Below are positions 24,800-63,972 of a stretch of 64,000 nt of DNA, in pieces. The translations under genes were made by a program, and so were the position numbers. Below the pieces are notes generated by a model, which saw only the letters and a program-made list of their open reading frames with translations, was not told the origin of the DNA and searched no databases. The stretch lies in IMG/VR virus record IMGVR_UViG_3300025012_000026, positions 124,001 through 188,000 of that record. One strand, 5' to 3'. Each line of letters opens with the position of its first letter. Position 1 is the stretch's first letter. This stretch comes from a virus.

Positions 24800-24837
24800 T
24801 GCTTTTTTAATTATCTTTTCATTACTCACCAATCTTT

Positions 24838-24910
24838 TCACAATTAATGGATTTGAACCATCGATCTTCCCTGACTATGGGGATGCATTTTCCGACTATG
24901 CTATACTGTG
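24838..24910 (-). tRNA. tRNA-like gene with a non-canonical anticodon arm
   Basis: The 73 nt fit tRNA geometry: acceptor pairing CACAGTA/AATTGTG (one A-A mismatch), D-arm GCAT-loop-ATGC with GG in the loop, T-arm GATGG-TTCAAAT-CCATT and a discriminator base. The anticodon stem has a mismatch in the 7-nt-loop register (anticodon would read AGT, unusual C at 37); an 8-nt loop with a 4-bp stem pairs better. It is probably a degenerate or unusual phage tRNA. The promoter at 24957-24985 points at it. Confidence 0.55.
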
Positions 24911-24956
24911 AATTTATTTATTGTAACGACATCTTGCTCTGCCACCCATTACAATC

Positions 24957-45419: not shown

Positions 45420-45435
45420 TTATTTTCTCCCCTTT

Positions 45436-45699: not shown

Positions 45700-45716
45700 T
45701 TTATTTTCCTTCTTTC

Positions 45717-45935: not shown

Positions 45936-45979
45936 ATAATTACTCCCTTATTCCCATTAGAATAAACCATAGATTTTAT

Positions 45980-46333: not shown

Positions 46334-46368
46334 CCTTTCAAATAGTCATTTTAATAACTTTGTTCCAA

Positions 46369-46722: not shown

Positions 46723-46724
46723 AA

Positions 46725-47168
46725 TTAATTTGCCAACTCCTTCTTTACAATTTCACTAGCAATTTTACCGTCATAAGTCCCACCATAGGAGTTCTTCAGT
46801 ACAGACATAACTTTGCCCATTTGCACTTCTGAATTAATATCTTTCAATGCTTCAATAATATCTCTAACAACATTTTCTAACTCCTCTCTACTCATTTTCT
46901 GAGGCAAATACTTACTTAAAACTAAAATCTCAGAAACAATATTACTTGTATTCTTATTATTTTTCAAAAGAATTGTTTGAATCTCATTTGCATTTTTAAT
47001 AAATTTCTCAATGACTTGCAACACTTCTGCATCTGTAGATTGTCTATTTCCAAGGTTTTTACCTATCATAGAGGCTTCAGAATATAGGGTTGTTAATAAT
47101 GTTGCAGTATCAATTTTACGAGCCTTGCGTGCGATAAGAGCATCTGATTTAATTTGATTGATTAACAT
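46725..47168 (-). CDS. GatB/YqeY-domain protein
   Basis: 147 residues. The helical N-terminal LINQIKSDALIARKARKIDT and the C-terminal MGKVMSVLKNSYGGTYDGKI with the final ASEIVKKEL match the YqeY family (about 150 aa), related to the tail of GatB and thought to touch tRNA. With the tRNA-like element and the PTH2 gene it adds to possible translation-related functions. Confidence 0.75.
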   Translation of the reverse strand: MLINQIKSDALIARKARKIDTATLLTTLYSEASMIGKNLGNRQSTDAEVLQVIEKFIKNANEIQTILLKNNKNTSNIVSEILVLSKYLPQKMSREELENVVRDIIEALKDINSEVQMGKVMSVLKNSYGGTYDGKIASEIVKKELAN

Positions 47169-47186
47169 TTATTTCACTCCTTCTTT

Positions 47187-47795: not shown

Positions 47796-47829
47796 TTTAT
47801 CTTCTCTCCCTTTCAGTTAGATATCCAAT

Positions 47830-48132: not shown

Positions 48133-48187
48133 TATTTTCTCTCCTTTGTTTTTTTTATTAAAATTAACATTATGCTCTACATTATGA

Positions 48188-48637
48188 CTACTTTACTAAT
48201 CTCAAAATATTAGTATGTAATGGTTTCCTATTTTCTATTGCATCTGAAATTTCTTCATACTCTAAAAAATCCTCATCGTAAAAATTATTGTACGGATCTT
48301 CTTCGTCATAATCCCATTCGTTTGTTTCTTTCCATACTTCAAATGCCCCTTGATGTAAATCATGGTTGTTATCGTATTTTGATATAAATGATTTATCAAT
48401 CATAAAATTTTCGGGAACAATTTTAAATGTTTTAACAAATTTAATTAAACATATTTCACACATTTGCGCTTTCCATGAATTATTATTATCAAATATGCTA
48501 TTATAACCAAATGAAAAATTAAGTTGCTGAATTGAATCTAATTTATCTTGTTCAACTGGTTTACCGCAACAGTTGCAAATAACGCCTACGATGACTTGCT
48601 CTGTTCTTGTAATCTCTACACTTTTTGTTATAATCAT
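48188..48637 (-). CDS. Hypothetical zinc-binding protein, 149 aa
   Basis: Start MIITKSVEITRTEQ after GAGTGTGG. CNCCG and CEIC pairs indicate a zinc site; the C-terminus is strongly acidic (DYDEEDPYNNFYDEDFLEYE). Unknown. Confidence 0.65.
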   Translation of the reverse strand: MIITKSVEITRTEQVIVGVICNCCGKPVEQDKLDSIQQLNFSFGYNSIFDNNNSWKAQMCEICLIKFVKTFKIVPENFMIDKSFISKYDNNHDLHQGAFEVWKETNEWDYDEEDPYNNFYDEDFLEYEEISDAIENRKPLHTNILRLVK

Positions 48638-48756
48638 TAAATCCACACTCTTTTCTAATTAATTTATACTTTATAAGATTATACGAATAAGAATTATAAA
48701 TTAAGGGTGTATTGGAAAGTTTTATGAAAATATTTTATGTCTTCTTTTATGTATCA

Positions 48757-48945
48757 CTATCGATTAATAAGTTCTCGTTCATTTATATGTTCTACTATTA
48801 CAAAAGAATTATCAAAAGTTATTTTAAACTTGAAATCATCTGGTTTATTTTTACCAAATCTTTTTATCATTTCCTTCTTTAGTTCATCTTGTTTTCTAAG
48901 TCTATCTCTGAATCCATCAAACTGAACATATACATAATCTCTCAT
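48757..48945 (-). CDS. Small hypothetical protein, 62 aa
   Basis: AAGGAG selects MRDYVYVQFDGFRDRLRKQD. Basic helix then strands. Downstream lies a 110-bp gap without a confident feature. Unknown. Confidence 0.6.
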   Translation of the reverse strand: MRDYVYVQFDGFRDRLRKQDELKKEMIKRFGKNKPDDFKFKITFDNSFVIVEHINERELINR

Positions 48946-49006
48946 AATATTAAACATCTCCTTAAATTTTATTTTTATATTTTACTAATTTGTTCACATG
49001 ATTATG

Positions 49007-49534
49007 CTAATTTTCTAAAATTGTTACTGTAGCATATCCAATACCGAAATCAATTGATTTTTTACTCGGGTTACTACTATGAAAATCTCCCAGAAACAAA
49101 TCCACTCTATTTCCAATTATTCCTGAACCTGTATCTACTGTTGTATAATTGTCTGAATATTTCTTATGTTTATGATCTATAAATGTCAATTTTACTTTTT
49201 TATTTAATGGAATTACTCTAGTATCAACTGATATGAATCTAGCACCAGTATTTTCCCATGACTTATTTTTTAAGTTTGTACCATTTTTTGTAATACCAAA
49301 ACCACTTTCTCCTCTTGATTTGGTGCATGATTGGACAGATAAATCATAACTAGTCACTTTAAATATGGATTTATCTTCTTCGCTAATTATCTCTTTCTTA
49401 GTAGGAGTCACTATGTATTGCTTTCTTAGTTCTTTCAAAACATTAGCATCACTTCCTTTGTAATTATTAATATGATTTGATCCCATACTACTTATGATAA
49501 TAAAAGCACTAAGTAAAATACTAAGTTTTCTCAT
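49007..49534 (-). CDS. Secreted 3D-domain protein, 175 aa
   Basis: Start MRKLSILLSAFIIISSMGSN gives a signal peptide. The C-terminal domain carries ISVDTRVIPLNKKVKL and TVDTGSGIIGNRVDLFLGD, the three-aspartate (3D) signature of MltA-like barrels such as Bacillus YorM/YabE tails. It probably acts on the cell wall. Confidence 0.8.
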   Translation of the reverse strand: MRKLSILLSAFIIISSMGSNHINNYKGSDANVLKELRKQYIVTPTKKEIISEEDKSIFKVTSYDLSVQSCTKSRGESGFGITKNGTNLKNKSWENTGARFISVDTRVIPLNKKVKLTFIDHKHKKYSDNYTTVDTGSGIIGNRVDLFLGDFHSSNPSKKSIDFGIGYATVTILEN

Positions 49535-49595
49535 TTTGTAACTTCTCTTTTCTGTCAAGTTTTATTTTGGGTTTTATAGATTAAGAGAAAGGGGA

Positions 49596-49994
49596 TTAAA
49601 TCCCCACTTCTACCATTGCTCTGTAATCCATCAAAATACTTTTAATTCCTATGGAATCAACCACTGGATGATCTATTTCTATTTCATTGATCACTATGTG
49701 TTTAAATGGGCAAGTTTTAACAATGCCTAGTTTAACTTCACTTCTTGAAACTTCTAACATATTAACTCTTTCAATATGGAATGCAATCCCAAATTTTATT
49801 TTTATTCCCTTTTCTTGGAGAAGATTTAATTCATTTTTGGCATCCAATTCATCTGTATATGTATAATATCCATTCGAAAGCGTTTCAGAATAAGAATATA
49901 TATATCTCCTAATTTGTTTGTCATATGAGATTGAGTTAACTCCTACAAAATTTCCTCTACTATCTTTTAATACAAATACTTCTAATTCTGTCAT
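49596..49994 (-). CDS. Hypothetical protein, 132 aa
   Basis: AAAGGGGG favours the start MTELEVFVLKDSRGNFVGVN. The frame is open to a TTG at 50087, but that start has a poor site and overlaps a short leader ORF. Beta-rich; a CPFKHIVINEIEIDHPV segment near the end. The stop codon lies inside the hairpin GGGGATTTAATCCCC. Unknown. Confidence 0.6.
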   Translation of the reverse strand: MTELEVFVLKDSRGNFVGVNSISYDKQIRRYIYSYSETLSNGYYTYTDELDAKNELNLLQEKGIKIKFGIAFHIERVNMLEVSRSEVKLGIVKTCPFKHIVINEIEIDHPVVDSIGIKSILMDYRAMVEVGI

Positions 49995-50020
49995 TAATTC
50001 AACTGCCCCCTTTATATTTT

Positions 50021-50068
50021 TTAGTGAAACCAAATGCTTGTTCCTTTCTGAGCATATTTTAGGAACAT
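50021..50068 (-). CDS. Possible 15-codon leader peptide
   Basis: ATG at 50066-50068 follows AAAGGGAG with ideal spacing and encodes MFLKYAQKGTSIWFH, ending 26 bases before the start of the 132-residue protein. It is overlapped by the longer open frame of that protein. It could couple or attenuate its translation. Confidence 0.35.
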   Translation of the reverse strand: MFLKYAQKGTSIWFH

Positions 50069-50127
50069 ATATTCTCCCTTTGCCCAATTACATTATCCCA
50101 CTTTGTCCATCCAATTGCAAAACAAAA

Positions 50128-50157
50128 ATTATATGCATATAACCATTCTTTCGACAA
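50128..50157 (-). promoter_or_regulatory. Promoter for the 132-residue gene
   Basis: On the minus strand TTGTCG (50152-50157), 18 bp, TATAAT (50128-50133). Confidence 0.7.
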
Positions 50158-50226
50158 AATAATTTTAAATTAGATTTAATTATTTTTATACTCTCATGTA
50201 TTTTAAGTTTAGACTGATATAATTGG

Positions 50227-50258
50227 GTCTACAGTCCCATCACTTAGGGACTGTAGAC
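50227..50258 (-). terminator. Strong hairpin at the end of the MrpR-like gene
   Basis: GTCTACAGTCCC (50227-50238) and its exact complement (50247-50258) enclose an 8-nt loop containing the stop codon of the repressor-like gene. No U tract follows. It should end or stabilise the yopQ-mrpR-like transcript. Confidence 0.75.
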
Positions 50259-51250
50259 TTAGTTTGTGTTTGCTTATAAGTCTCATACATTTCTTTTAAT
50301 CCTTGCCAACCCCTTTCATCCAATTCTAAGTCTTTAAATAATTGCTTAAAATCTTCAGATTTTAATTCACCAAGTTCTATTTCTTTTTGTAAACATCTGT
50401 CAAGCATACCGGATTGAAATATAAGAGTTGGATTTAAAAATTTAATACCTGTATAAGTTCTAAAGTTTTTAAATCTCGAACTTATATTTCCAACAGTAAT
50501 TTTTTCATCATTGTCACTACTTTTCCTGTCAAGTGTTCTAAGAATATATGGAGTATCTTTAACAGGCATAATAGCAAATCTTCCGGTATCTTCTCCATTT
50601 GATTTATGATAAGTGTCTTCAATGCAAGCCATTCGCAATATTTCCATAGTCCTTGGATCTACAGTTATAGGTCTTGGTCGAGGATTTTTAATTTTGTCAT
50701 CTGGATCTCTAGTTATAATAACTATATTTGATTCAGGGTCTAGATCACTCATTTTTAGATTTCTTAATTCTTCATAGGTGTGTCCTTTTATTGTTCTGCC
50801 TCTGATATTTTCATATAATGATGCCATTAATGCTTTATCGACATAATTATACAATCCGTCACAATAATCATACATTTGTTCTCTAGTGATATAGGAATTT
50901 CTCTGAGCTACTTGATGGATATATTTTGGTAAATCTTCTTTTTTATCAACTAATTTCAATACGTTCATTGAACTGTAATTGTTAAATAAACACCAATCAA
51001 GATATTGCATGATAATTGTATAAGATACACCTAATGATTTAAGAGATTTCTTTTTCATTCCAATTAGTAATTCTTTTACTTCCTCGTAACTAAATTTGCT
51101 CAAATCTTTGTTTTTTTCATGCTCGAATCTACTAACACTTTTTAAGATAGAGGTATTTGTCACTCTAGTGCTTTCATTAGGATATTTCTCATCAAGAAAA
51201 CGATTTTTCAATTCTTCGTTAAATAAAGTTCTTTCAATAGTTAATGACAT
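50240..51250 (-). CDS. MrpR/YopR-like tyrosine-recombinase-fold protein (candidate lysogeny repressor)
   Basis: 336 residues. An N-terminal SAM-like helical domain (LKNRFLDEKYPNESTRV...LDWCLFNNY) is followed by an integrase-like domain (MASLYENIRGRTIKGHTYEELRNLKMSDLD...RPRPITVDPRT). The layout matches SPbeta YopR/MrpR, a recombinase-derived DNA-binding repressor of lytic genes, and the gene follows a YopQ-like gene as in SPbeta. GGAGGT precedes the ATG, which overlaps the upstream stop. A true integrase is possible but less likely. Confidence 0.7.
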   Translation of the reverse strand: MSLTIERTLFNEELKNRFLDEKYPNESTRVTNTSILKSVSRFEHEKNKDLSKFSYEEVKELLIGMKKKSLKSLGVSYTIIMQYLDWCLFNNYSSMNVLKLVDKKEDLPKYIHQVAQRNSYITREQMYDYCDGLYNYVDKALMASLYENIRGRTIKGHTYEELRNLKMSDLDPESNIVIITRDPDDKIKNPRPRPITVDPRTMEILRMACIEDTYHKSNGEDTGRFAIMPVKDTPYILRTLDRKSSDNDEKITVGNISSRFKNFRTYTGIKFLNPTLIFQSGMLDRCLQKEIELGELKSEDFKQLFKDLELDERGWQGLKEMYETYKQTQTKSTVPK

Positions 51251-52605
51251 TATGATACCTCCTTCTGAAGTTGATAAACAACATCTTTAAAATAATCAGA
51301 AATCTTTTTAAATGTAGATAAATTTACATGATTTTCGATTCCAATTTTTTTCCAAATTTTATTTGATTTATCGAAATCTAAAGAGTTTAATACTTTTACT
51401 AATCTAGGTTTCCAGTCATCACCATATTCTTGTCTTAATAAATCTCCTAAAATAATATACCCCATAAACATGTTGTTATGTGCAAGATATGAATTTTCTT
51501 TGGTATTAGATAATTCTGTTTTAAACTTTGAATAATTGAGTCCAATAATATTATTGAACAACTCTACAATATCATTTTCAACTTGTGCGGTTCTAATAAC
51601 TGGCTCCTCTTTAAGATCATAAAGAAATTCAATGGATTTTGATAAAGTATCAAATGTCATTAATTTGTTTTCAATAATCAATTCCTTTTCATTTAAGGCT
51701 ATACGATTAAACATTTCGTTTGCCCTTTGTCTAGAATTAATAGCTTTTGCTACTTCCATATTTGGATTGGCTGTATTTTTAAAATCAACCCATTCAGTTT
51801 CAATTTGTGTACTTTTACTTTCTTGTCGAATTATTTCATTGGCACGCTCTTCTGTAACGTGGTGAATATAAATTGATGTAACCCTATCTATGTCATTCTT
51901 AATTTCAACAGTTTTTAACATGCCACAGGTTCTATTTGCACCATCAATTATGTCTACTAACGTAGACGCATTATCTGGTTCAATTAATAACGTTCTAGTT
52001 TTAAGATCATACTTAAACTTTTCTTGTCCATTTATTTTGCGAATGTTCCACATAATAGCATTAGTGCAAAAAGAACCATCTATCATTGACTCTGTAATTT
52101 CTGATACCTTTTTGCTGTCAATATTAATAGATTCAACAATTCTGTTTCCACTTCGTCTTTTTAAAAGTTGTCTTTGAGTATTTGGATTATATGTTAATAG
52201 TCCATTACCCATATAAAGATTAATATTTTGATAAGTTTCCTTTGTACATAACCATTGACTATCATCTATTTGATCGACATTATGAAGTAAAATATACTTA
52301 ACTTTTTCTTTATCAAGTTTTTTGTAATAATCAGCAGAAGACAATTCAATCTCTGTAAAGAACTCATCTGGATTTATTTCTGTTCGGTGAGTGTATCCAT
52401 AAAGATATTTTGTAAATAAACATAGTTCAATTTCTTCAACATAAACCAAAGGAATTGCTTTAGTGAATATACCTGTAGTTCTGCCCCTCGGTATACCTCT
52501 TTCTAATAATTTGCCTATGACTTGCTCTTGAATTTGATTGTCATTTGAATAATCTTCAATGACTAAATTAAGAATATCCTCAAGAATTTGACGATCTTGT
52601 TTCAT
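51250..52605 (-). CDS. YopQ-like protein with ParB/DGQHR-type core
   Basis: 451 residues from the start after AAAGGAGG (MKQDRQILEDIL). The central TLVDIIDGANRTCGMLKTVE and the TEERANEIIRQESKSTQIE segment resemble ParB/DndB-like DGQHR proteins. Length and position before an MrpR-like gene match SPbeta YopQ as I remember it (about 460 aa). Its biochemical role is unknown; a cofactor of the repressor is plausible. Driven by two promoters at 52.68 and 52.75 kb. Confidence 0.65.
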   Translation of the reverse strand: MKQDRQILEDILNLVIEDYSNDNQIQEQVIGKLLERGIPRGRTTGIFTKAIPLVYVEEIELCLFTKYLYGYTHRTEINPDEFFTEIELSSADYYKKLDKEKVKYILLHNVDQIDDSQWLCTKETYQNINLYMGNGLLTYNPNTQRQLLKRRSGNRIVESINIDSKKVSEITESMIDGSFCTNAIMWNIRKINGQEKFKYDLKTRTLLIEPDNASTLVDIIDGANRTCGMLKTVEIKNDIDRVTSIYIHHVTEERANEIIRQESKSTQIETEWVDFKNTANPNMEVAKAINSRQRANEMFNRIALNEKELIIENKLMTFDTLSKSIEFLYDLKEEPVIRTAQVENDIVELFNNIIGLNYSKFKTELSNTKENSYLAHNNMFMGYIILGDLLRQEYGDDWKPRLVKVLNSLDFDKSNKIWKKIGIENHVNLSTFKKISDYFKDVVYQLQKEVS

Positions 52606-52678
52606 AATATTTATTCCTCCTTTTGACATATCAGCAACAAGTTATGTTGCTATGTATTGGTTAATAATACGCAATGCT

Positions 52679-52708
52679 ATTATAATATATAATATGCCAA
52701 TACGTCAA
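52679..52708 (-). promoter_or_regulatory. Promoter P1 of the yopQ-mrpR-like operon, with inverted repeats
   Basis: TTGACG (52703-52708), 18 bp, TATAAT (52679-52684) on the minus strand. CCAATAC at 52697-52703 overlaps the -35 side and is mirrored at 52654-52660. A second repeat, AGCAACA/TGTTGCT (52633-52639, 52645-52651), lies in the leader. These are candidate operators. Confidence 0.8.
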
Positions 52709-52747
52709 GAAGAATGCCTGATTAGTTTTATTATTTATGATTATATC

Positions 52748-52777
52748 ATTATAACATTATTGATTGCATAATGTCAA
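52748..52777 (-). promoter_or_regulatory. Promoter P2 of the yopQ-mrpR-like operon
   Basis: TTGACA (52772-52777), 18 bp, TATAAT (52748-52753) on the minus strand. The spacer contains CATTAT-7 nt-ATAATG (52755-52773), a possible operator. Confidence 0.8.
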
Positions 52778-52816
52778 ATAATTTATTTTATACACTTGAT
52801 TATCATATCTCTCACC

Positions 52817-53626
52817 TTAATTAATCATATTCTCATAATCTTGATTCCCAACATTTTCACAAACCATTTGTGCTGTTTTTTCTTTGCATAAATAATGATT
52901 AATTACCATTAGTAACCATGTTAAAAATATTACTGGAATAGATGTTATTATAACAATAGCAATTAGTTCATCAATAAATTGTAATTTAATTATAATGCTA
53001 TTGTTTTCTACTAATTTGTTCATATAATTTACCACTAGAACTCTAGTTGACAATACTAACAACAAACCACTAATAATAAATTTATTTCTGATAACCGAAC
53101 TAAATAGATTAATTTTTACTTTGCTGTTTTTTCTAACTAGAATTAAGGAAACAATACATAGATGCAAAATTTTGATTGGAATGGCCCATAAGATATTGTA
53201 CATGACATTATCATTAAAAAAACTATATGGCTTATCTAATAACGATAATAGAAGTGGACAGTATGCGTATTCTATTATTCCTACAATGACGAAGCTTCCG
53301 ACTGTATAGATTGCTGTTTTAAATATTAATGATATGTTTATGTCAAAACTGTTTGTGATGACTATGTATTCCATTAAGATTATCATTAGAAACATAATTG
53401 ATAATATAGAATTTTGTTTTGGTACTATGATAATATACTTGAAGATATTTGCCATTATTGCTACTGGTAATGCTGTGAGCATAATCCATGTTAGACTACG
53501 TTTCCACATTAAAATATCTAGTAGATCATTAATTTTTAAAAGTGATAATGCGATGATTACAATGAACATTTGTTCAGGGAGGCCAACAAATATGGTGTTT
53601 AGGATGGCATTTGTTATGGATTGCAT
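52817..53626 (-). CDS. AgrC-like sensor membrane protein without kinase (receptor B)
   Basis: 269 residues, start MQSITNAILNTIFVGLPEQM after AAAGGAG. Six or seven hydrophobic segments, then a cytosolic tail of about 25 residues. The N-terminal 70 residues align with the protein at 55463-56248 (ITNAIL..., LPEQMF/LPEEIF, LLDI.MW, IFKYIII.PK). It resembles AgrC sensor domains but no HisKA or HATPase part follows. It starts 7 bases after the AgrB stop, so it is co-translated with the peptide processor. Confidence 0.7.
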   Translation of the reverse strand: MQSITNAILNTIFVGLPEQMFIVIIALSLLKINDLLDILMWKRSLTWIMLTALPVAIMANIFKYIIIVPKQNSILSIMFLMIILMEYIVITNSFDINISLIFKTAIYTVGSFVIVGIIEYAYCPLLLSLLDKPYSFFNDNVMYNILWAIPIKILHLCIVSLILVRKNSKVKINLFSSVIRNKFIISGLLLVLSTRVLVVNYMNKLVENNSIIIKLQFIDELIAIVIITSIPVIFLTWLLMVINHYLCKEKTAQMVCENVGNQDYENMIN

Positions 53627-53644
53627 ATGGGTGTTCACTCCTTT

Positions 53645-54277
53645 TTATTTTATTTTTGAATCTAGCGCAGAATAAACAATTTGCCCTATTCTGCTTATAC
53701 TAAATAATTCTAATAATAATCCAAAACAACTTGAAATTACAATAATCTTTAGATTGAAAAGTAGGGAGATGGTCATTATGATTGTCCATATAAATAGATA
53801 ATATGATGACCATCTTTTGAATTTTTTGATTTCTAATGGCTCTGTGATTGGTTTATTTGGTGTATCTCTAGGTACATAACGATAAATTATATACATTGTC
53901 ATTACAACACAGAAATTGAATAAATACCACATGTCTATAAATGACCAATATTGGAGTGTATATTTGATTAATAATGCTGATCCAATGAACTGAATGGTTG
54001 AAAAAGTTATACATTTATTATATTCCCCGAAATGGTATCCACCTGCTATGATACGTAAACTACTGAAGGTCAAGGCGATTATTAGGGTAGGAAGCTTTAT
54101 GCTAAAAATAGATGCTAAAGATACCATTAACATAGCCTTAAAAATAGCACCCCAAACTACCATGAAACCATATGTGAAAACCTCAATCTGATCTTCTACG
54201 GTAGGATATTTATCATTAGGTACTTTTTTTGCTAACCACTTAGCAGAATGATTTGATACAAATTCTATAAAACTCAT
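53645..54277 (-). CDS. agrB: AgrB-type autoinducer-processing cysteine protease
   Basis: 210 residues, multi-pass membrane protein. The catalytic motif LRIIAGGYHFGEYNKCI carries His82 and Cys89 at the AgrB spacing, and PRDTPNKPI is the conserved AgrB loop. It should cut the C-terminal tail of AgrD and form the ring of the signal peptide. It lies in the same operon as the HTH-MazF gene and receptor B, whereas agrD is in the neighbouring operon. Confidence 0.92.
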   Translation of the reverse strand: MSFIEFVSNHSAKWLAKKVPNDKYPTVEDQIEVFTYGFMVVWGAIFKAMLMVSLASIFSIKLPTLIIALTFSSLRIIAGGYHFGEYNKCITFSTIQFIGSALLIKYTLQYWSFIDMWYLFNFCVVMTMYIIYRYVPRDTPNKPITEPLEIKKFKRWSSYYLFIWTIIMTISLLFNLKIIVISSCFGLLLELFSISRIGQIVYSALDSKIK

Positions 54278-54304
54278 TAAATTATTTAATCTTCCTTTCT
54301 TTTA

Positions 54305-55108
54305 TCATGCATAAGCCACCTGTTGCCCTACACTAGTATAATTATTTTCTTGTATATTCTGTCTGATTGGTTTAACTTTATTTAGATTTTTCAAAGTCTC
54401 TATTGCTTCCTCTTCGTTTACATGTAATTCTAAAATACCCTCAGATTTCATAAGGGCAATTTCAACTTTCAACATTATATTTGAAGGACATTCAGCGACT
54501 TTTTGAAATACTCCATTCTTTCCTATTAATCTTCTTTTTGATATTGTGTTTGGTAATTCACAACATATAATAGAGTCCTGTGGGATATTACATTCTTTAC
54601 TGCTTGCGAAAACGTGAGTCGGCATCTTAGCTTTGGATCTAGTTGTCATCGCTATGACAATAGAGTTGCTAGAGCAAGCATTCCCCTTATTATTTTGCAC
54701 CACAAGCACCATTCTTGGGCCGCCTACTTCACTATCTATCCCTTTGTCACCAAAGTCTGCGAAACAAAAATCTCCTCTTCTGACACGAATATTTTTTATT
54801 TGCTCTAAATCATTATTTGCATATAAAGAGTATCCACATGCTATTTTTAGATCCTGCAACGAAACCCTACCTTCTGAATTATTTGCGAAAACATTGAGGG
54901 TTTGAACGTTCGGATAAACATTTATTTTTTCACGAACGATAAGTTCTATGTACCCTCCTTCAATTTTGCAGTCTGCTCCAAAATTATTGATTGTCCTATG
55001 GGTTCCTTTAGCAAGCATAATTAAACTAGCTAGTTTCTTAAAATCCTTTTTGGCATTTACCTCAGTGTTGGTGGTATTAGTTGATTTGGCAAATAATTTG
55101 TTGAACAT
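54305..55108 (-). CDS. HTH (XRE-like) - MazF/PemK fusion protein
   Basis: 267 residues from MFNKLFAKS. The N-terminal region DFKKLASLIMLAKGTHRTIN...LQDLKIACGYS reads like an XRE-type helix-turn-helix domain. The C-terminal part RRGDFCFADFGDKG...GGPRMVLVVQN...VIAMTTRSKAK matches the MazF/PemK barrel (endoribonuclease family). It is first in the operon with agrB. A DNA-binding toxin-derived regulator or a quorum-controlled mRNA interferase are the two readings. The promoter is at 55172-55201. Confidence 0.7.
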   Translation of the reverse strand: MFNKLFAKSTNTTNTEVNAKKDFKKLASLIMLAKGTHRTINNFGADCKIEGGYIELIVREKINVYPNVQTLNVFANNSEGRVSLQDLKIACGYSLYANNDLEQIKNIRVRRGDFCFADFGDKGIDSEVGGPRMVLVVQNNKGNACSSNSIVIAMTTRSKAKMPTHVFASSKECNIPQDSIICCELPNTISKRRLIGKNGVFQKVAECPSNIMLKVEIALMKSEGILELHVNEEEAIETLKNLNKVKPIRQNIQENNYTSVGQQVAYA

Positions 55109-55171
55109 AATAATGCACATCCTTTTCATATTTAATAAGATATAAAATAATTTTCTTTAACTGATAGTATA

Positions 55172-55201
55172 ATTATATCTTATTATGTATGGATATGTCA
55201 A
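55172..55201 (-). promoter_or_regulatory. Promoter of the mazF-fusion/agrB/receptor B operon
   Basis: TTGACA (55196-55201), 18 bp, TATAAT (55172-55177) on the minus strand, directly after the agrD hairpin. Confidence 0.9.
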
Positions 55202-55240
55202 CATAATTATTTTCAATTGTCTATTAATTTATATTATGGT

Positions 55241-55270
55241 TATAGGAGAGAACCGAAGTCCTCTCCTATA
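55241..55270 (-). terminator. Long hairpin with TTCG tetraloop after agrD
   Basis: A 13-bp stem (one G-U) TATAGGAGAGGAC/GTTCTCTCCTATA capped by TTCG, between the agrD stop and the next promoter. No U tract, but a very stable fold that should end or protect the receptor A-agrD transcript. Confidence 0.7.
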
Positions 55271-55287
55271 TGTAAAAGTGATTAAAA

Positions 55288-55407
55288 TTATTTATTTAGA
55301 CATTTAGGATCTTTTGGTTGATAAGAAAACGCCCAAGAAGCCATATTTGATGTAAATAGTGCTAACATAGATACTAATCCAGCAAGAACAATATATACTT
55401 TCTTCAT
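55288..55407 (-). CDS. agrD: AgrD-like autoinducing peptide precursor with serine at the ring position
   Basis: 39 residues after GGAGGTGACATTAAC. The layout is typical of clostridial AgrD: a hydrophobic leader (KKVYIVLAGLVSMLALF), a core SWAFS and the conserved tail YQPKDPKCL. Aligned to C. perfringens-type precursors (CLWFT before HQPEEPKSL), Ser replaces the ring cysteine, so the predicted signal is a five-residue lactone rather than a thiolactone. It follows receptor A and ends before a strong hairpin. Confidence 0.85.
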   Translation of the reverse strand: MKKVYIVLAGLVSMLALFTSNMASWAFSYQPKDPKCLNK

Positions 55408-55462
55408 GTTAATGTCACCTCCTTTCCAAGAATTTATTTATATAACAAATGCCTTAATCATC

Positions 55463-56248
55463 TTAATCAATAAGATTTTCTTGCGTTTGCTGTATACGTT
55501 TTTCTATACCGACTACACAATTTATCATATACCACAACACCATAAGAAATATAGTTGGTAGACTTAGAATGAATCCTATTGATAATATTTGTTCCCAAAT
55601 TGGCAATGTGCTTAAGATATTATTATATCCTATCAATTTCACAACATAAATTGTAAATAGTGTTAAGAAAGATATTATAAAAATTATCATATTGGTTAAT
55701 GGTTTATTTTTGAACACTAAATTGTACAATTTGATATTTACTTGTTCATTCATCTTAACTATAAAAAATATTATTATTGAGAATTCTAAAATTCTAGAAG
55801 GAATTACTAGTAAAAACATATAAGAAATATTTTGATTAAAATATTCATAAGGAATTTTTAACAATGAAAACGTTAGTGGCATATAAGCTAATTCAATTAA
55901 ACTGACTATTATTAGAGTAATCATTGAGTAAACTATGGTTTTAAATATTAGTTTATTTTCTTGAGTTATTTCAGTAATTCTTATTATGTAAATAATCGCC
56001 AACCAAAATATTATTAATGAGATTATTGATGTTAATAATTTAGGCAAAATTATAATATACTTAAAAATACTTATACACATTGCCATCAGCAATGAAGGTA
56101 TTATAATCCACTTAATATTTATTCTCCACATTCTTATGTCAAGTAAATCAAATCTTTTGAACAATATTAATGTCATACATGTTACAAATATTTCTTCAGG
56201 TAAGGATATAAGAACCATGTTCAATAAAGCATTTGTTACACCTTGCAT
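55463..56248 (-). CDS. AgrC-like sensor membrane protein without kinase (receptor A)
   Basis: 261 residues, start MQGVTNALLNMVLISLPEEI after AAAGAGGT. Six or seven transmembrane segments and a short charged tail ending IEKRIQQTQENLID. Paralogue of 52817-53626. Encoded just upstream of agrD, so each of the two operons pairs one such protein with one half of the signal-making machinery. The missing kinase means signalling must go through another partner. Confidence 0.7.
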   Translation of the reverse strand: MQGVTNALLNMVLISLPEEIFVTCMTLILFKRFDLLDIRMWRINIKWIIIPSLLMAMCISIFKYIIILPKLLTSIISLIIFWLAIIYIIRITEITQENKLIFKTIVYSMITLIIVSLIELAYMPLTFSLLKIPYEYFNQNISYMFLLVIPSRILEFSIIIFFIVKMNEQVNIKLYNLVFKNKPLTNMIIFIISFLTLFTIYVVKLIGYNNILSTLPIWEQILSIGFILSLPTIFLMVLWYMINCVVGIEKRIQQTQENLID

Positions 56249-56288
56249 ATGTATTACCTCTTTCTTATTCATTTCTTAACCTGTAATA

Positions 56289-56317
56289 AGTATACCATAA
56301 GACAAGGTGTAACGCAA
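56289..56317 (-). promoter_or_regulatory. Promoter of the receptor A-agrD operon
   Basis: TTGCGT (56312-56317), 17 bp, TATACT (56289-56294) on the minus strand, in the short gap after the DUF5317-like gene. Confidence 0.75.
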
Positions 56318-56329
56318 GTATTATTTTAT

Positions 56330-56941
56330 TTATTGATTCATATATACCTTATTAATTTCTTTGACTGAACAGTAAACTATTATAAAAGCAAATATTCTTA
56401 TTAAAATATCACCAATACTCCAAATTGACATACCAAATATATCAAATATATCGGACAAAAATATTAGATTTGTCATATGATCACCTAAAACATGAAAATC
56501 ATTAAACTTAGAAGCATTCATAATCATATCATACTGAGTGTAACCAGTTGAATAAGATACATCTGGGAAAATAGGCATCATCCCATGATTAAAGTACATT
56601 ACAATATAATTCAATACAAATCCACACAAGAGACTACAACAAGCGATAATATACTCTTTATACTTCTCATGCCTAAATAGAACATCAAGTCCTAGAATCA
56701 TATATGATCCTAATATAGCATTCTTTATTATGTGTTGATATTGAAGAAAGTAGTAATTTTGATTCATTATTGTATATTGTAGATAGATGTAAAATATAGA
56801 CATTAATATAACTGGATAGATACTCCATCTTTTTAGTATTGGTTTTATATTGTATGATTCTTTATGTATTTGGAATTTTCCTAGTTTTATGTAAAGATAT
56901 ATTTTAGAGAATATGAGCGATGCTATTAGTGTCTCGACCAT
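56330..56941 (-). CDS. DUF5317-like membrane protein, 203 aa
   Basis: Multi-pass membrane protein with the pattern NHGMMPIFP...H...T...FLSDIFDIFG...SIGDILIRI, matching DUF5317 (consensus NxGxMPV, then LxD and SxGDxL). It sits beside the agr-like genes and may belong to the same system. Function unknown. Confidence 0.65.
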   Translation of the reverse strand: MVETLIASLIFSKIYLYIKLGKFQIHKESYNIKPILKRWSIYPVILMSIFYIYLQYTIMNQNYYFLQYQHIIKNAILGSYMILGLDVLFRHEKYKEYIIACCSLLCGFVLNYIVMYFNHGMMPIFPDVSYSTGYTQYDMIMNASKFNDFHVLGDHMTNLIFLSDIFDIFGMSIWSIGDILIRIFAFIIVYCSVKEINKVYMNQ

Positions 56942-57001
56942 TTATTGTATTATCTCCTTTGTATTATTTTGTAATAATTTATTTATTTACAATCATGTAT
57001 T

Positions 57002-58738
57002 CTACGGAGGTTTATTATTTTGATCTTTAATCATATTCTCATAATCTACTAAATACATCCATTTAAGTAATTCACCAGTCTCAAGATCTTTACCACATGT
57101 TTTTTGTTTATTTTTGCAACATCTTCCAATTCCGACACGATTTATATTATATTCTTTTGATGCGTTTGCAATAGAATTGAATACTTTGTTTGTTGTCAAA
57201 CATATTATCTTCATATCTCTTGAACTATGTAGTATATACTTTATTTCTTGTTTATCTTTAAAAATATATTCTTCGTAATACATCCAAACCATCTTTTCCC
57301 CTGTTTCGGGATGTTTTCCTGCCGATTTTTGTATACCTAAACAACATGATGAAATATCACTATTCCTTATATTATACTTACTTGTTGCATCAGTTATAGA
57401 ATTAAAAATTTCATTAGTTGTTAAACAAACAACTTTTGTTTGCATTACTTCTTTAGTATCATAATCACACCACCCCAATTCTACACCTTGTTTTAAATAT
57501 CTAGAAACTGTAGAGGTATGAACCTTTATTATATCTGCTATTTCTACAGTCCTTTTAATTCCACTATTCCATAAATTACATGAAATTTTAACTAAACTTG
57601 AACATCCAGCCTCATGACACTTCAACCAATCTATATCTTTTTCTTTAAAATTAAGTAATATGGGCAATCTAGACCTCATTATGCTATTCTTTATCCACTC
57701 TAACTCAGACTTTCTACAATCGATTATTATGTAATTATTAATATTGTTTGTTCTCGCTAACCACTCTTTATCAAAATCATTTTCCTGAACTTCTGCTAAT
57801 GAAACTTTCCAATTACCTGTTATTTCTTCATAATGCTGAATTCCTTGAATTTCAATGACAATTTTATCTAATTTTTCTATGTAAAAATCATATCTGTATC
57901 CACCACACCATTTAAAAGTTATTTTACTCAATTGAGATTTAAAATTTAGATGTAATTGTTCTAAAAAAGATAGAAAGAACTTCTCTGGATAACTCACACC
58001 ATCGGAACATCTAGGGCAAGCAAATCCATGTACTACTAAGGTGCTAAAATTTAAATTTTTATCATATCCACAATCTGGACATTTCATAGGTATTTTTGGA
58101 TTTGATCCAAAAGAATGTTTATTTGCATCTTCTTTATTTACCAAATACTTAATTAAATGTGGATGAGTTGTCACAACCATATTACACATATTGCAATCAA
58201 GACTTCCATTTTGTCCATTTGTAAAACTACTAATACTTTTTAATTCACTTTCATGTTCTGGATGTTCTAAACACTTAAACCAATAACCTTTTTTATTAAA
58301 ACCTGCGGAACTAAAGCTTACATCATTAGGGCTTAATACTTTCCCATTTTTTATATTTTTTGCATCATCCCATCTAGATAATATCCAATCTGCCAATTCT
58401 TTAGGGAGATTATCGTAACACCATTGATAAAAAGATTTACTATTTTTTAATTTTGTAATTCTTCCATTTTCACTCACAAACAGTTTTATGGCACATTTTA
58501 TACAATAATATTTTTCACCCTCATGTCTTAAATCTATATAATGTCGCCATATGACATTTTTTATAATTTCTCCGCAACCATCACACTGAATATCGACTAA
58601 TGCGTGTGAACTATGAGGTAAATCCTCTACTTTCACTTCGAATTCATTGCCCATTTTTGTAAAGATATAATCTCTTTGTTCATAATATTTTTTAATACTT
58701 GCATTCCATTTCATTTTTACGGTTTTAGTTATTAACAA
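57002..58738 (-). CDS. Homing endonuclease with Vsr-like (EDxHD) nuclease and NUMOD1 repeats
   Basis: 578 residues. Zinc modules (CDGCG...CIKC; CNMC; CPDCG; CPRC) lead to a nuclease domain YPEKFFLSFLEQL...YRYDFYIEKLDKIVIEIQGIQHYEE with the Vsr/EDxHD signature. It is followed by an HTH (VEIADIIKVHTSTVSRYLKQ) and two NUMOD1 repeats. Start is TTG (58736-58738), inside a hairpin stem whose loop contains AAAGGTG. Confidence 0.85.
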   Translation of the reverse strand: MLITKTVKMKWNASIKKYYEQRDYIFTKMGNEFEVKVEDLPHSSHALVDIQCDGCGEIIKNVIWRHYIDLRHEGEKYYCIKCAIKLFVSENGRITKLKNSKSFYQWCYDNLPKELADWILSRWDDAKNIKNGKVLSPNDVSFSSAGFNKKGYWFKCLEHPEHESELKSISSFTNGQNGSLDCNMCNMVVTTHPHLIKYLVNKEDANKHSFGSNPKIPMKCPDCGYDKNLNFSTLVVHGFACPRCSDGVSYPEKFFLSFLEQLHLNFKSQLSKITFKWCGGYRYDFYIEKLDKIVIEIQGIQHYEEITGNWKVSLAEVQENDFDKEWLARTNNINNYIIIDCRKSELEWIKNSIMRSRLPILLNFKEKDIDWLKCHEAGCSSLVKISCNLWNSGIKRTVEIADIIKVHTSTVSRYLKQGVELGWCDYDTKEVMQTKVVCLTTNEIFNSITDATSKYNIRNSDISSCCLGIQKSAGKHPETGEKMVWMYYEEYIFKDKQEIKYILHSSRDMKIICLTTNKVFNSIANASKEYNINRVGIGRCCKNKQKTCGKDLETGELLKWMYLVDYENMIKDQNNKPP

Positions 58739-58771
58739 TTAGCAACACCTTTTTGCCAATTGTTAATAACT
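58727..58771 (-). promoter_or_regulatory. Hairpin with ribosome site in the loop and start codon in the stem
   Basis: 14-bp arms AGTTATTAACAATT (58727-58740) and its complement (58758-58771); the 17-nt loop holds the ribosome site, and the TTG start lies in the 3' arm. It predicts translational repression of the homing endonuclease. Confidence 0.75.
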
Positions 58772-58805
58772 TTATATTTTTCAATAAACATCCTTCTCCT
58801 TTTAT

Positions 58806-59216
58806 TTATGCATACACAATATTCTTATCTTTCTGACCTATTGAGAATTGAATAAGTATACCTTGATTTATACGTTCCATAGTTTCAGAATTACAATATC
58901 CAACTTTCTTCAAAAATATATCTTCATTTTTGTTAACTAACATAACTTGTTCACAGAGAGCAATAGAATCTCTTAATAGTCCTGAAGAGTTTTTATTTAT
59001 GCTTTTGTGAGTTGGTAATTTTGACTTCGTGCCGATAGAACTAATTGGACATATATGCACAACTGGACTGTAGCGATTTGCCATATTATTACTTACAATT
59101 ATGCATGGACGCAATTTTCCTTGGATAGATCCCTTGCCTTCTCCTAGATCAACTAACCATATCTCTCCTCGATTAAATTGTTGTGGTTGTTGAACATTAT
59201 TTATTACATTTTGCAT
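58806..59216 (-). CDS. Solitary MazF/PemK-family endoribonuclease
   Basis: 136 residues, start MQNVINNVQQPQQFNRGEIW after GAAGGAG. RGEIWLVDLGEGKGS...GKLRPCIIVSNN...CPISSIGTKSKLPTH and SGLLRDSIALCEQV follow the MazF pattern. Expected to cut mRNA. No MazE-like antitoxin gene is adjacent; translation may instead be limited by the start-region hairpin (59215-59260). Confidence 0.85.
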   Translation of the reverse strand: MQNVINNVQQPQQFNRGEIWLVDLGEGKGSIQGKLRPCIIVSNNMANRYSPVVHICPISSIGTKSKLPTHKSINKNSSGLLRDSIALCEQVMLVNKNEDIFLKKVGYCNSETMERINQGILIQFSIGQKDKNIVYA

Positions 59217-59260
59217 AATAATTATCACTCCTTCTTATTTAACCTTGTGATAATTATTAT
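59215..59260 (-). promoter_or_regulatory. Hairpin enclosing the MazF ribosome site, start in the stem
   Basis: 14-bp arms ATAATAATTATCAC (59215-59228) and its complement (59247-59260) around an 18-nt loop containing GAAGGA; the first two bases of the ATG pair in the stem. Same design as at 58727-58771. Confidence 0.75.
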
Positions 59261-59340
59261 TCCCCACAGCTTGGATAATATACGTTGTCCAACAAAACTT
59301 TTATTTCTACATTCTAATCACCCCCTTACATTCTAATACT

Positions 59341-59611
59341 TTACCACCATAAACTAGGCAAACACAATGCAAATATATTAACTATATCTTCTACTTTTTC
59401 TTTCTGCTCGTCAGTCCTTTTCATTGTACATAGATAATCTTTCATATAACCATAGTTTAAATGTGAAGTCCATTGACCAAGTTTCTTTTTCATCAAAACC
59501 ATATATTTCTCTTTCTTTAATCCATCGTTCTTGCCTTGAATCATCTTTATTCCAACCTTGAGGAGTATTGTCTTCTAATATACCAAGGTCTTTAAGATAT
59601 TTACCTAACAT
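59341..59611 (-). CDS. Hypothetical phage protein, frameshifted
   Basis: The first part (MLGKYLKDLGILEDNTPQGW...FDEKETWSMDFTFKLWLYERL) resembles a familiar phage family (FDE.ETW..D.TF..WLYERL). It stops early at 59411, and the matching C-terminus (RTDEQKEKVEDIVNIF) continues in another frame to 59341. Deleting one A from the run GAAAAGG (59418-59421) restores a single protein of about 89 residues. Indel real or artefactual. Confidence 0.6.
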
Positions 59612-60318
59612 TTATTTTCCTCCTCTAACCCCTTAAATGCCATAATAGCAACCTCTAATTGTTCCACACTTGGTTCCTTTGTGAAAATATATTTCTGCAA
59701 TAAACTTCCTACAAAATAAATTGGCTTAACAAACCACTTAATAATCCTATTATCAGATCTCATTACTTCATATGTAATTCCCCATCCTAATAACATTGCT
59801 CCAGAATGAACTAATGAAACTAATAATCCACTAATTATAATTAATCCAATATACAAATTAGTTCCACAATTATCATTTACACAACTTTGATTCATTGATG
59901 TTTCAATCGACACTTTACCATTTATTTCGTAATCATTTACCACTTTATGTTCTGCTCCATGATAATATTTCGTTTTACTACATTTATTAAATAACAACAT
60001 AAAAATAGGCAATATAATGAAATTATGATAGTTACTGTTTTGTAGACTGCTTGGTTCAAAATTGTATAGACCATAAGAATAAATAAGACTTAGTGCCAAT
60101 AATAACAAACCAAATTTTGTAAAAATTAATTTTAATATAATCCAATATGCTCTAGCAAAAGGTATTCTGTAAAGAAAATTCTCTAAAATATTTTGCTTAT
60201 CATCTTTGAGTATTTTATTTACAATAATATTATTGCCTTTTCTTATTGCTGTTGAAGTATGAGTTTCTGATTCAAACATTACATTATTGTATCCTGCTCT
60301 ACCACCTAGTAAATTCAT
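59605..60318 (-). CDS. DUF1385 (YqhQ-like) membrane protein
   Basis: 237 residues. An N-terminal LLGGRAGYNNVMFES...TAIRKG segment and the motif YYHGAEHKVVNDYEIN match DUF1385 (GGQAVIEGVMM, then YHGAEHK). Several transmembrane segments follow. The family's role is not settled; a phage copy is unusual. Confidence 0.75.
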   Translation of the reverse strand: MNLLGGRAGYNNVMFESETHTSTAIRKGNNIIVNKILKDDKQNILENFLYRIPFARAYWIILKLIFTKFGLLLLALSLIYSYGLYNFEPSSLQNSNYHNFIILPIFMLLFNKCSKTKYYHGAEHKVVNDYEINGKVSIETSMNQSCVNDNCGTNLYIGLIIISGLLVSLVHSGAMLLGWGITYEVMRSDNRIIKWFVKPIYFVGSLLQKYIFTKEPSVEQLEVAIMAFKGLEEENKC

Positions 60319-60330
60319 ATTCTATCCACC

Positions 60331-60594
60331 TCAAATCCCCTTAATATCATTCGGAATCCCAAATTCCCACTTATCACAACCTACAACCGGATAAATCTTA
60401 ATTATAAACCCATGTTGTACATTCATTTGCTCTCCTACTCTGCAATATTGTAATCTCCCATCTCTCATTCTAGCATTTTTACAAGTCAAACAAGTTTTAT
60501 TTATCACATTATAATCACAAACTTTTTCATGGATTTCCATTTCTTCTTTTGGGAGTAACATAGTACAGAAATCACATTTGAATATTGGTTTCAT
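60331..60594 (-). CDS. Cysteine-rich zinc-finger protein, 87 aa
   Basis: KCDFCTMLLPKEEMEIHEKVC is a C2HC-type finger and is followed by CLTCKNA...CRVG. Unknown role. Confidence 0.7.
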   Translation of the reverse strand: MKPIFKCDFCTMLLPKEEMEIHEKVCDYNVINKTCLTCKNARMRDGRLQYCRVGEQMNVQHGFIIKIYPVVGCDKWEFGIPNDIKGI

Positions 60595-60641
60595 ATTTAA
60601 TCACTCTCCTTTCTTTAATACAACAAGACAAAAGACTTGTT

Positions 60642-60818
60642 CTAAACCAACAACTTCTTTAATTCATGTTCAAAATAAAATGTTGCAGGATTTTCAATTA
60701 TAGTATAAGTATATCTAGCTTGTTTCAGTGTATAACCCCATTCATTTACCGTGACAATTTTACCATCTAATAATACTTTTTCTCCATCTTGAAATTTTGG
60801 ATTAAATTCATTAATCAA
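60642..60818 (-). CDS. Small hypothetical protein, 58 aa, TTG start
   Basis: TTG at 60816-60818 lies 7 bases after AAAGGAG. MINEFNPKFQDGEKVLLDGK start with a small SH3-like strand pattern. Unknown. Confidence 0.65.
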   Translation of the reverse strand: MINEFNPKFQDGEKVLLDGKIVTVNEWGYTLKQARYTYTIIENPATFYFEHELKKLLV

Positions 60819-60832
60819 TTTAATTCTCCTTT

Positions 60833-61285
60833 CTACTCAAACATTTTAACAGTATTCTTAAATATCCCTGCCATATCACAAGAATAACCAAATCTATCAT
60901 GATTTTTATCAATATCAATAAGAATATTTCCATCATTGTGTCTTAATGACGATGCTTTCCAATCACAAACCATTTCAATTAAATCTACTAAATCCATATC
61001 TTTAATTCCATTAGGCCAATGTTGGGGGTGATGTCTATTTTTTGCATAATGATGATCTAATGCTTCTTTAAGTTCTTCAAGAGTCTTTTTATCTTCTTCG
61101 CTTCCATAGGTGCAACCAGCCAATTTTGAATTATGTTGAGCAAAAATATCTGCTTCAAAGTCCTCTAGTTTTGAATTATCATGATTGATTGCTCTTTCAC
61201 CTAATTTCTGGATAACTTTATTCATAAACTTATTGACCAATTGCTTATGTTTGTATGTGTCACACATTGTTTCATATTTTGTCAT
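60833..61285 (-). CDS. DUF5662-like HD-type protein, 150 aa
   Basis: The HDNSKLEDFEADIF motif, HHYAKNRHHPQHW and DLIEMVCDWKASSLR follow the DUF5662 consensus, a histidine/aspartate-rich family probably binding metal. Function unknown. Confidence 0.75.
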   Translation of the reverse strand: MTKYETMCDTYKHKQLVNKFMNKVIQKLGERAINHDNSKLEDFEADIFAQHNSKLAGCTYGSEEDKKTLEELKEALDHHYAKNRHHPQHWPNGIKDMDLVDLIEMVCDWKASSLRHNDGNILIDIDKNHDRFGYSCDMAGIFKNTVKMFE

Positions 61286-61457: not shown

Positions 61458-61814
61458 TCATCTACATAACTTTAAATTTTTTAACCAATTTAATTCTTTT
61501 GGAAAATCATCATAATCGATAATTCCCATATTAATACATGTCAATGTATTAGGTTCTAAATCCGTCCATCCTCTATCTCTGATAGCGATATAACCTTTAA
61601 CTTCTAATTCCTCTAATTTTGATTGCGGAGCATAAAGAATAATTTTCTTTTGATAATTCGTCATATATAATTCAATAGTTGAATCGTATTCCTTACTCTC
61701 ATCAATCATAAAATTATAAAAATATACTGCTACTGCGTGTCCGACTTGACCTGCAAGTTTTCCTTTATTGATTTCAATATCTTCATTAACTAATATATAC
61801 ATTCTTAAATCCAT
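61458..61814 (-). CDS. Peptidyl-tRNA hydrolase 2 (PTH2) family protein
   Basis: 118 residues. INKGKLAGQVGHAVAVYF is the PTH2 signature (GKxAxQ.xHA); AIRDRGWTDLEPNTLTCINM matches the later D.G.T......T motif. The archaeal/eukaryotic-type enzyme frees tRNA from peptides. A phage copy next to a tRNA-like locus and YqeY is notable. Start after GGAG. Confidence 0.8.
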   Translation of the reverse strand: MDLRMYILVNEDIEINKGKLAGQVGHAVAVYFYNFMIDESKEYDSTIELYMTNYQKKIILYAPQSKLEELEVKGYIAIRDRGWTDLEPNTLTCINMGIIDYDDFPKELNWLKNLKLCR

Positions 61815-61828
61815 AATTAAATCTCCTA

Positions 61829-62316: not shown

Positions 62317-63972
62317 TTATTTCAAAACTCTCGCTCTAATTTCTGCTAAACTTTCATCTCTTACTAATTTTCCATCAATAAATACATCTTCAAGTAAATC
62401 AATAATATCAATTGCATCTTTTTCCATTTCATTTAATCCATCAACCAAATAGATACCATTTTCACCATCAACTACTGCAACCATTCCTTTTTGAGATTTT
62501 TTGATTCCACCAATATCGGTTTTAGGATCTTTAAAGATAAACTTTTCAACTCCATCAATAACCGTATAAGTGGCCTTTAAAGCGAACGAAAATGTGTCTC
62601 TGGTGTGATAACCTAAAGAATAACTTCCAACTCCGTATACGATGTTTTCTGCTGAAAACCCCTTTGCTTCTAATTGTTTGAAAGTTTCTTCTGCAATTTC
62701 TGGACTTATGCTATCTCCATATATTAAGCCCACATGACTATCTAGTACCTTATACCCTTTACTATTAATAGTTCCTCCAAAGGTATCCCATAATGCTTCT
62801 ACAGAACCCTTTTGCTCTATAGTTAATTTTACTTCTTTACAAATATGAACATTAGCACCATCAATATAATAATATTGTTTATCATGTCTATTCCAATCAA
62901 TTTCAATAACAATTTCATAATGCTTATCTTGAAATTTAAAAATTGCATCTTGCCTAGAAATACCATGTTCTCCATGAGGTGTATCATTTCTTATATCGTC
63001 AATTATTCTCTCCAACATAATTTCCTTGCAATCTTCCAGATTATCACAATATTCTTCATTGGTTAAATCTTCAACAATCACATTACCGCAAATAATCTTT
63101 ATTGGACTTCCAGAATCAGGACGAATGACACACTTACCATTTCTACTCATAATATCATCTTTCAATGAAGGTAAAATATTCCCCAAGACATTAAAATAAT
63201 CATACCCATCACTAACTATACTTACAATTCCACTAGGGGCAACTTCAGTAATCATTCTCTTAAAATATCTCAAATCATCTTGATATCCACATTGAATACT
63301 ATGTTCCGTTGCTAACACACTTGCTGAAACTAATTCCTTTTCCACATTAACACCATAATATTGCTCTAAATATTGAATACTTGGAATCGTATCACTACCA
63401 GTAAAATATAATAAATGTCCTGCTCCTGTAGTTACTGCATCTTCATGACCACTCATACCTCTATAACTAAAATTATGACATTGCCATTGAATATGATCTT
63501 TACTATCACATGTTTTCTCAGCCCACTTTTCACAAATGTCTCTATATTTCTTTACAATTGTTGTTGCAGTAATTACTTTCCACATATTTGCGGAAATCAA
63601 TGTCTCTAAGAAATTAGTCAACCAATAGAACTCTTTTTTAGTATTTTCAATTGTAAACACAGGAACTTTCATTGGAATCAATGTGCCTTCTTTTACTGCC
63701 TTGATTTTAATAGGAAGGTATCCTAAATCATGTAATGCTTCAATATGAGTTGTATCTGCACAATTATCTCCTAGAGAATTTTTAATGATTCTTTTATAAT
63801 CTGCAACTACTATTGATTTATCAACATTGAAAAAGTTTTCATTGAAATTATCAATTAGATAATCTTTAATAAATCCTTGTAAACCAAAGAATACTACTTC
63901 ATTAATTCCTTCAATTCTTGAATGTCTAGGCGTAAATGTAGAATAAATTTTTTCTGTACCTTTTTCACTCAT
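62317..63972 (-). CDS. nadV: Nicotinamide phosphoribosyltransferase (NAMPT/NadV)
   Basis: 551 residues, full length. HNFSYRGMSGHEDAVTTGAGHLL, GSDT, ATEHS (catalytic His), VSDGYD and IRPDSGSP are the NAMPT motifs. It makes NMN from nicotinamide and PRPP, a salvage route to NAD that also feeds the phage's NAD-dependent ligase. The ribosome site upstream of the ATG is poor, so the start is less certain. A partner enzyme may lie beyond the window. Confidence 0.93.
   Translation of the reverse strand: MSEKGTEKIYSTFTPRHSRIEGINEVVFFGLQGFIKDYLIDNFNENFFNVDKSIVVADYKRIIKNSLGDNCADTTHIEALHDLGYLPIKIKAVKEGTLIPMKVPVFTIENTKKEFYWLTNFLETLISANMWKVITATTIVKKYRDICEKWAEKTCDSKDHIQWQCHNFSYRGMSGHEDAVTTGAGHLLYFTGSDTIPSIQYLEQYYGVNVEKELVSASVLATEHSIQCGYQDDLRYFKRMITEVAPSGIVSIVSDGYDYFNVLGNILPSLKDDIMSRNGKCVIRPDSGSPIKIICGNVIVEDLTNEEYCDNLEDCKEIMLERIIDDIRNDTPHGEHGISRQDAIFKFQDKHYEIVIEIDWNRHDKQYYYIDGANVHICKEVKLTIEQKGSVEALWDTFGGTINSKGYKVLDSHVGLIYGDSISPEIAEETFKQLEAKGFSAENIVYGVGSYSLGYHTRDTFSFALKATYTVIDGVEKFIFKDPKTDIGGIKKSQKGMVAVVDGENGIYLVDGLNEMEKDAIDIIDLLEDVFIDGKLVRDESLAEIRARVLK

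Follow-up and report, generated by a model that had tools for sequence, protein, structure and literature searches.

A PTH2-type peptidyl-tRNA hydrolase gene in an exchangeable block of a large phage genome

Introduction

Enzymes of the Pth2 family, which form homodimers, cleave the ester bond of peptidyl-tRNA and so free the tRNA. The archaeal and eukaryotic members (1xty of S. solfataricus, 3erj of A. fulgidus, 2zv3 of M. jannaschii and 1q7s, human Bit1) share their length, their fold and the positions of a Lys, a Gln, a His, an Asp and a Thr with the phage protein described here.

Phage PTH2 is already in print, and the present gene adds one member. The published cases include Klebsiella phage RaK2 (PMC3622015) and the plasmid-phages of C. 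difficile, in which Pth is encoded with an RNA 2'-phosphotransferase and a tRNA-splicing ligase (PMC5786514). Pth has been described as unexpectedly prevalent in viruses, with the avoidance of peptidyl-tRNA toxicity as its proposed role (PMC12487901), and the same general peptidyl-tRNA role has been proposed for phage and viral Pth elsewhere (PMC7824862). The host enzyme can matter to a phage, since the bar minigenes of lambda are toxic to Pth-deficient cells (PMC8012679). Bacterial Pth, which is Pth1 and not Pth2, undoes the acetylation of tRNA by TacT (PMC9241777). In the literature consulted no bench test of any phage PTH2 was found; searches on peptidyl-tRNA hydrolases encoded by phages, and on this enzyme in defence against phages, returned no paper in the collection searched.

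The gene analysed here lies in a stretch of 64,000 nucleotides (the window), which corresponds to bases 124001-188000 of a viral record of 227,247 bases (G000). The G+C content of 28% and the relatedness to C. difficile phages suggest a clostridium-like host.

Results and discussion

The window encodes an apparently intact PTH2-type hydrolase

61458..61814, minus strand: PTH2-type peptidyl-tRNA hydrolase, 118 aa (Pfam, phrog_1866, PDB sequences, alignments, model, Foldseek)
61823..61827, minus strand: AGGAG, ribosome-binding-site-like, eight bases 5' of the ATG (read from the sequence)

The open reading frame occupies exactly 61458-61814 and starts with ATG; the earliest in-frame start, a TTG at 61832, would give a protein of 124 aa. 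Its product scores 49.5 bits in the Pfam family PTH2 (PF01981), for which the cut-off is 23 (E 5.9e-13, model positions 2-98 of 115), and also matches phrog_1866, a family without a stated function (E 1.9e-14). When PDB sequences were searched, six distinct ones were matched at E <=0.01: five archaeal Pth2 proteins and 24bt, titled 'peptidyl-tRNA hydrolase'. A monomer model was built with 35 sequences from the window and from viral contigs, broken and near-identical ones being omitted, and reached a mean pLDDT of 95.0 and a pTM of 0.87. In Foldseek at E <=0.001 it retrieved 13 chains from seven entries, all of the Pth2 family (query TM 0.43-0.74); 1rlk and 1q7s bear other titles and are Pth2 proteins as well, in line with the PDB sequence matches. 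The best matches by sequence and by fold are both Pth2 structures, to the seven of which the phage-borne window protein, known from its sequence and model, is about 19-27% identical. The assignment to the PTH2 family made in the preliminary description is far beyond chance, and the structural prediction that it had called for returned the Pth2 fold.

Gly18, Lys19, Gln23, His26, Asp80 and Thr92 (ORF numbering) are invariant in all 35 aligned proteins, some of which have as little as 23% identity to the window protein; Gly82 is present in 34 of the 35 rows and Thr84 in 31. The conserved Lys, Gln, His, Asp and Thr align with those of 1xty and other structures, and we take these positions to be the active-site residues of Pth2. 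The loss of catalytic residues had been named beforehand as evidence against the gene, and all five are in place. Thus, by its family, predicted fold and conserved residues, the ORF is a genuine and apparently intact PTH2-type hydrolase gene, whose product would be expected to be catalytically active. The record holds a single PTH2, and no bacterial-type Pth1 was matched in it.

The same alignment bears on whether PTH2 is a passenger, an often-moved and dispensable cargo gene with little effect on the phage. It lies in an exchangeable block, described below, and some C. difficile-type copies have broken frames, with open frames of 87 aa (L057, in G037) and 71 aa (L059, in G039, where the gene is in two pieces). 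The invariance of five positions down to 23% identity, and the recurrence of intact PTH2 genes in many viral contigs, point instead to selection, and we regard the passenger reading as unlikely.

PTH2 in other phages, plasmids and cellular genomes

The preliminary description had called PTH2 rare in Firmicute phages. Window-like PTH2 was found in 11 of 50,697 phage records by a single-sequence search, which undercounts phage PTH2, so that the gene is infrequent in absolute terms; in relative terms the statement fails, as eight of the 11 are Enterococcus or C. difficile phages. PTH2 was also found in 12 plasmid records and, among the best 80 of 356 confirmed loci, in genomes of Bacilli and archaea. 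Two viral contigs carry two PTH2 genes each (L052 and L056 in G033; L048 and L050 in G030).

In the C. difficile plasmid-phages (phiCDIF1296T and relatives), PTH2 is 34% and the DnaE polymerase 48% identical to their counterparts in the window. The PTH2 genes of jumbo, Enterococcus, Brevundimonas and Sinorhizobium phages belong to the same family but differ in hosts and neighbours, and several of them lie near tRNA genes. The PTH2 of an Alkaliphilus plasmid is 57% identical to that of the window, and the Bacilli copies are 30-41% identical (best 80 of 356 loci); the neighbours of the plasmid and Bacilli genes differ from those in the window and include, for example, NUDIX hydrolase genes. In a tree of 69 PTH2 rows the window protein grouped with eight others, seven of them viral and one the Alkaliphilus plasmid copy (support 97/94). 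With 125 columns kept, an unsettled bootstrap and open deep forks, the tree says nothing firm on origin; one Bacillus row (L185) was assigned to no group by the label matching.

PTH2 does not track YqeY, tRNA or MazF

24837..24911, minus strand: single tRNA-like gene with anticodon AGU (ARAGORN tRNA-Thr(AGU); Rfam; fold)
46725..47168, minus strand: YqeY-family protein, 147 aa (Pfam 73.1 bits against a cut-off of 27; phrog_1460)
54305..55129, minus strand: protein of 274 aa, PemK-like in its C-terminal domain (Pfam 64 bits)
58806..59228, minus strand: MazF/PemK-like protein, 140 aa (Pfam 84.7 bits; phrog_1936)

The preliminary description had joined PTH2 to a YqeY at about 46.7 kb and to a tRNA-like locus, as a set for management of the tRNA pool that would, for example, rescue peptidyl-tRNA once MazF has cut mRNA. 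Both companion loci were recovered. A tblastn search placed relatives of YqeY in 60 phage records, of which Caulobacter and Pseudomonas phages account for 38. The tRNA-like locus is weak, yet at 38.5 bits (E 1.4e-4) it exceeds the Rfam gathering score of 29 and is the sole Rfam match of the window. Its folding moderately beats that of shuffled sequences (z -1.88, 11 of 200 as good), and a C:A mismatch is seen by eye in the anticodon stem. ARAGORN, run over stretches covering the remainder of the record, found no second tRNA.

All parts of the proposed set are thus present in one record, where they lie 2 to 37 kb apart. In a distant relative (G033), with two PTH2 genes about 33% identical to that of the window, the order PTH2, MazF, PemK fusion, YqeY is the same as in the window. 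This stretch of G033 also shares AgrB, DndB-like, integrase-like, ligase and more genes with the window. Because so many other genes are conserved there, the common order is explained by phage ancestry and needs no functional bond.

The co-occurrence of PTH2 and MazF in related phages, which had been put forward as a check, was examined in two sets of records. From 68 PTH2 loci in viral contigs, the records of 49 were searched for partners; second loci of contigs already included (L050, L056) and 17 weaker loci were omitted. MazF/PemK was present in 8 of the 49 records, two of which are near-identical to the window (G001, G002) and one related to it (G003). YqeY was present in four, three of them above the cut-off and G001 and G002 among them, and tRNA in 21, with 20 or more tRNA genes in some.

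A matched set was built on relatives of the window DnaE. Of 84 loci 80 were kept, and the 40 whose contigs measure 40 kb or more supplied its records; one of these 40 (L166) matches DnaE at only 25%. G015, G016, G025 and G039 belong to both sets. PTH2 was found in six of the 40 (in one of them, G039, as two pieces below the cut-off), MazF in 11, YqeY in two, RtcB in six and tRNA in 21. Records with and without PTH2 did not differ for MazF (2/6 against 9/34), YqeY (0/6 against 2/34) or tRNA (3/6 against 18/34; Fisher p = 1 in each case), a comparison in which many records are fragments, so that absences are soft, and in which six PTH2 records give little power. Among its relatives, PTH2 tracks none of MazF, YqeY and tRNA. 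MazF and YqeY were rejected as partners on co-occurrence and on the sibling record described below, and tRNA on its counts in PTH2-bearing records (21/49) and in matched records (21/40; 3/6 against 18/34). A tie of PTH2 to the tRNA pool in general follows from its family. Its joint action with YqeY, tRNA and MazF, which these counts and the sibling oppose, is very improbable.

PTH2 lies in a block that is replaced in a near-identical phage record

60834..64000, strand not assigned: window part of the block replaced in the sibling record (BLAST of the window and L013 against L174 and L175)

A sibling record (G053; 230,300 bases) has a DnaE 100% identical to that of the window. In the part compared by BLAST it is 100% identical to window positions 45185-60833 (15,649 bases) and then diverges without transition where the DUF5662 gene ends. 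It retains both MazF-like genes, YqeY and, at the collinear place, a tRNA of the same score; PTH2 was not found in it. The block contains, within the window, DUF5662, PTH2, a small cysteine-rich protein and a NAMPT-like gene. It continues past the window end with a deoxyribosyltransferase-like and then a PRPP-synthetase-like gene, up to about 195.2 kb of G000, where similarity to the sibling resumes at 88% identity. The replacement (L174 from 15650 to about 7970 of L175) carries kinase-like, PP2C-like and nucleotidyltransferase-like genes among others. One further protein in it appears VWA-like by eye and has no Pfam match above the cut-off.

The window arrangement recurs in L003 and L004, and that of the sibling is represented by one metagenome contig only, possibly an assembly chimera. 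Elsewhere, PTH2 genes 90% (L005) and 72% (L022) identical to that of the window have other immediate neighbours. Since the sibling keeps the MazF-like genes, YqeY and the tRNA while PTH2 is missing and the block is replaced, PTH2 behaves as an exchangeable accessory gene that forms no fixed unit with them. The two nearly identical phage records, one with PTH2 and one without, constitute a natural comparison.

On balance, PTH2 is probably an accessory gene of a large phage that serves general peptidyl-tRNA recycling, carried in an exchangeable block outside any fixed unit with YqeY, tRNA or MazF. During infection, peptidyl-tRNAs would drop off or leave ribosomes. PTH2, if active at the right time, would cut their ester bond so that tRNAs are not trapped, to the presumed benefit of the phage, and would supplement the unrelated Pth1 of the host. 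Such a supplementary hydrolase would be the simplest benefit, and a counter-defence against tRNA damage may be considered its main rival.

A possible counter-defence role and the RtcB-bearing relatives

As a counter-defence, PTH2 would act where host defences cleave or acetylate tRNA: it would clear the resulting peptidyl-tRNAs or N-blocked aminoacyl-tRNAs and so restore phage translation. The reversal of TacT acetylation by Pth1 (PMC9241777) is in keeping with such a role, as are the large tRNA complements of some PTH2-bearing records. In the C. difficile phages, RtcB lies about 1 kb from PTH2 and Tpt1 in the same region, an association that agrees with the published description of these phages (PMC5786514). 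RtcB was found in 15 of the 49 PTH2-bearing records, and in the matched set it was commoner with PTH2 than without (4/6 against 2/34, p = 0.002). This excess would favour a role in tRNA damage and counts against general recycling. However, near-copies of the C. difficile type make up 14 of the 15 records, and the four matched records with both genes (G015, G016, G025 and G039) are near-copies from one C. difficile lineage, on which the RtcB link was set aside. The window record is unlike these phages: RtcB and Tpt1 of the C. difficile phage, compared by blastp with the 299 ORFs of G000, gave no match at E 1e-3. We consider counter-defence possible, with a rather low probability.

The NAMPT-like and PRPP-synthetase-like neighbours

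In a row, NAMPT-like, deoxyribosyltransferase-like and PRPP-synthetase-like genes occupy window positions 62317-63972 and positions 1028-2410 of L013. The NAMPT-like gene scores 98.9 bits in Pfam; the PRPP-synthetase-like gene, two genes away on the same strand, scores 28.1 bits against a cut-off of 27, barely above it. The trio resembles NARP1 (Adps and Namat, PRPP-synthetase-like and NAMPT-like; Namat is told from Nampt by a selectivity clamp), a known counter-defence (PMC12774641). Its place in the exchangeable block with PTH2 would fit a counter-defence function. A joint version would make PTH2 and the NARP1-like NAD+ pair one block that frees tRNAs blocked by tRNA-cleaving or tRNA-acetylating host defences and restores NAD+, for which siblings swap in the kinase-like, PP2C-like and nucleotidyltransferase-like set. 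L003 and L004, both near-identical to the window, are the only loci where the two neighbours were seen close to PTH2, and the link of NAMPT with PTH2 was not retained; the joint block is a doubtful proposal. Of ten proteins submitted to PADLOC, the kinase-like protein of the sibling matched kinase-containing models and the other nine gave no match. General recycling of peptidyl-tRNA is kept as the preferred role of PTH2.

Other features of the phage record

Window positions 52817-56941 contain AgrB (119.5 bits) beside two membrane proteins that are 39% identical to each other and look like AgrC sensors without the kinase, one of them with no Pfam match. The PemK fusion and a membrane protein of 203 aa lie in the same segment, which recurs in L005 and in L052/L056 and is possibly a phage quorum-sensing block. 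At 50240-52629, a DndB-like protein (31.1 bits, barely above the cut-off) adjoins an integrase-like protein (phrog_5830), and this pair is 65% identical in L052. At about 93-104 kb of G000 (L010, L011), genes resembling those of a conjugation apparatus (type IV secretion) and of partition proteins of the ParM type were recognised by eye only, which suggests a plasmid-like prophage.
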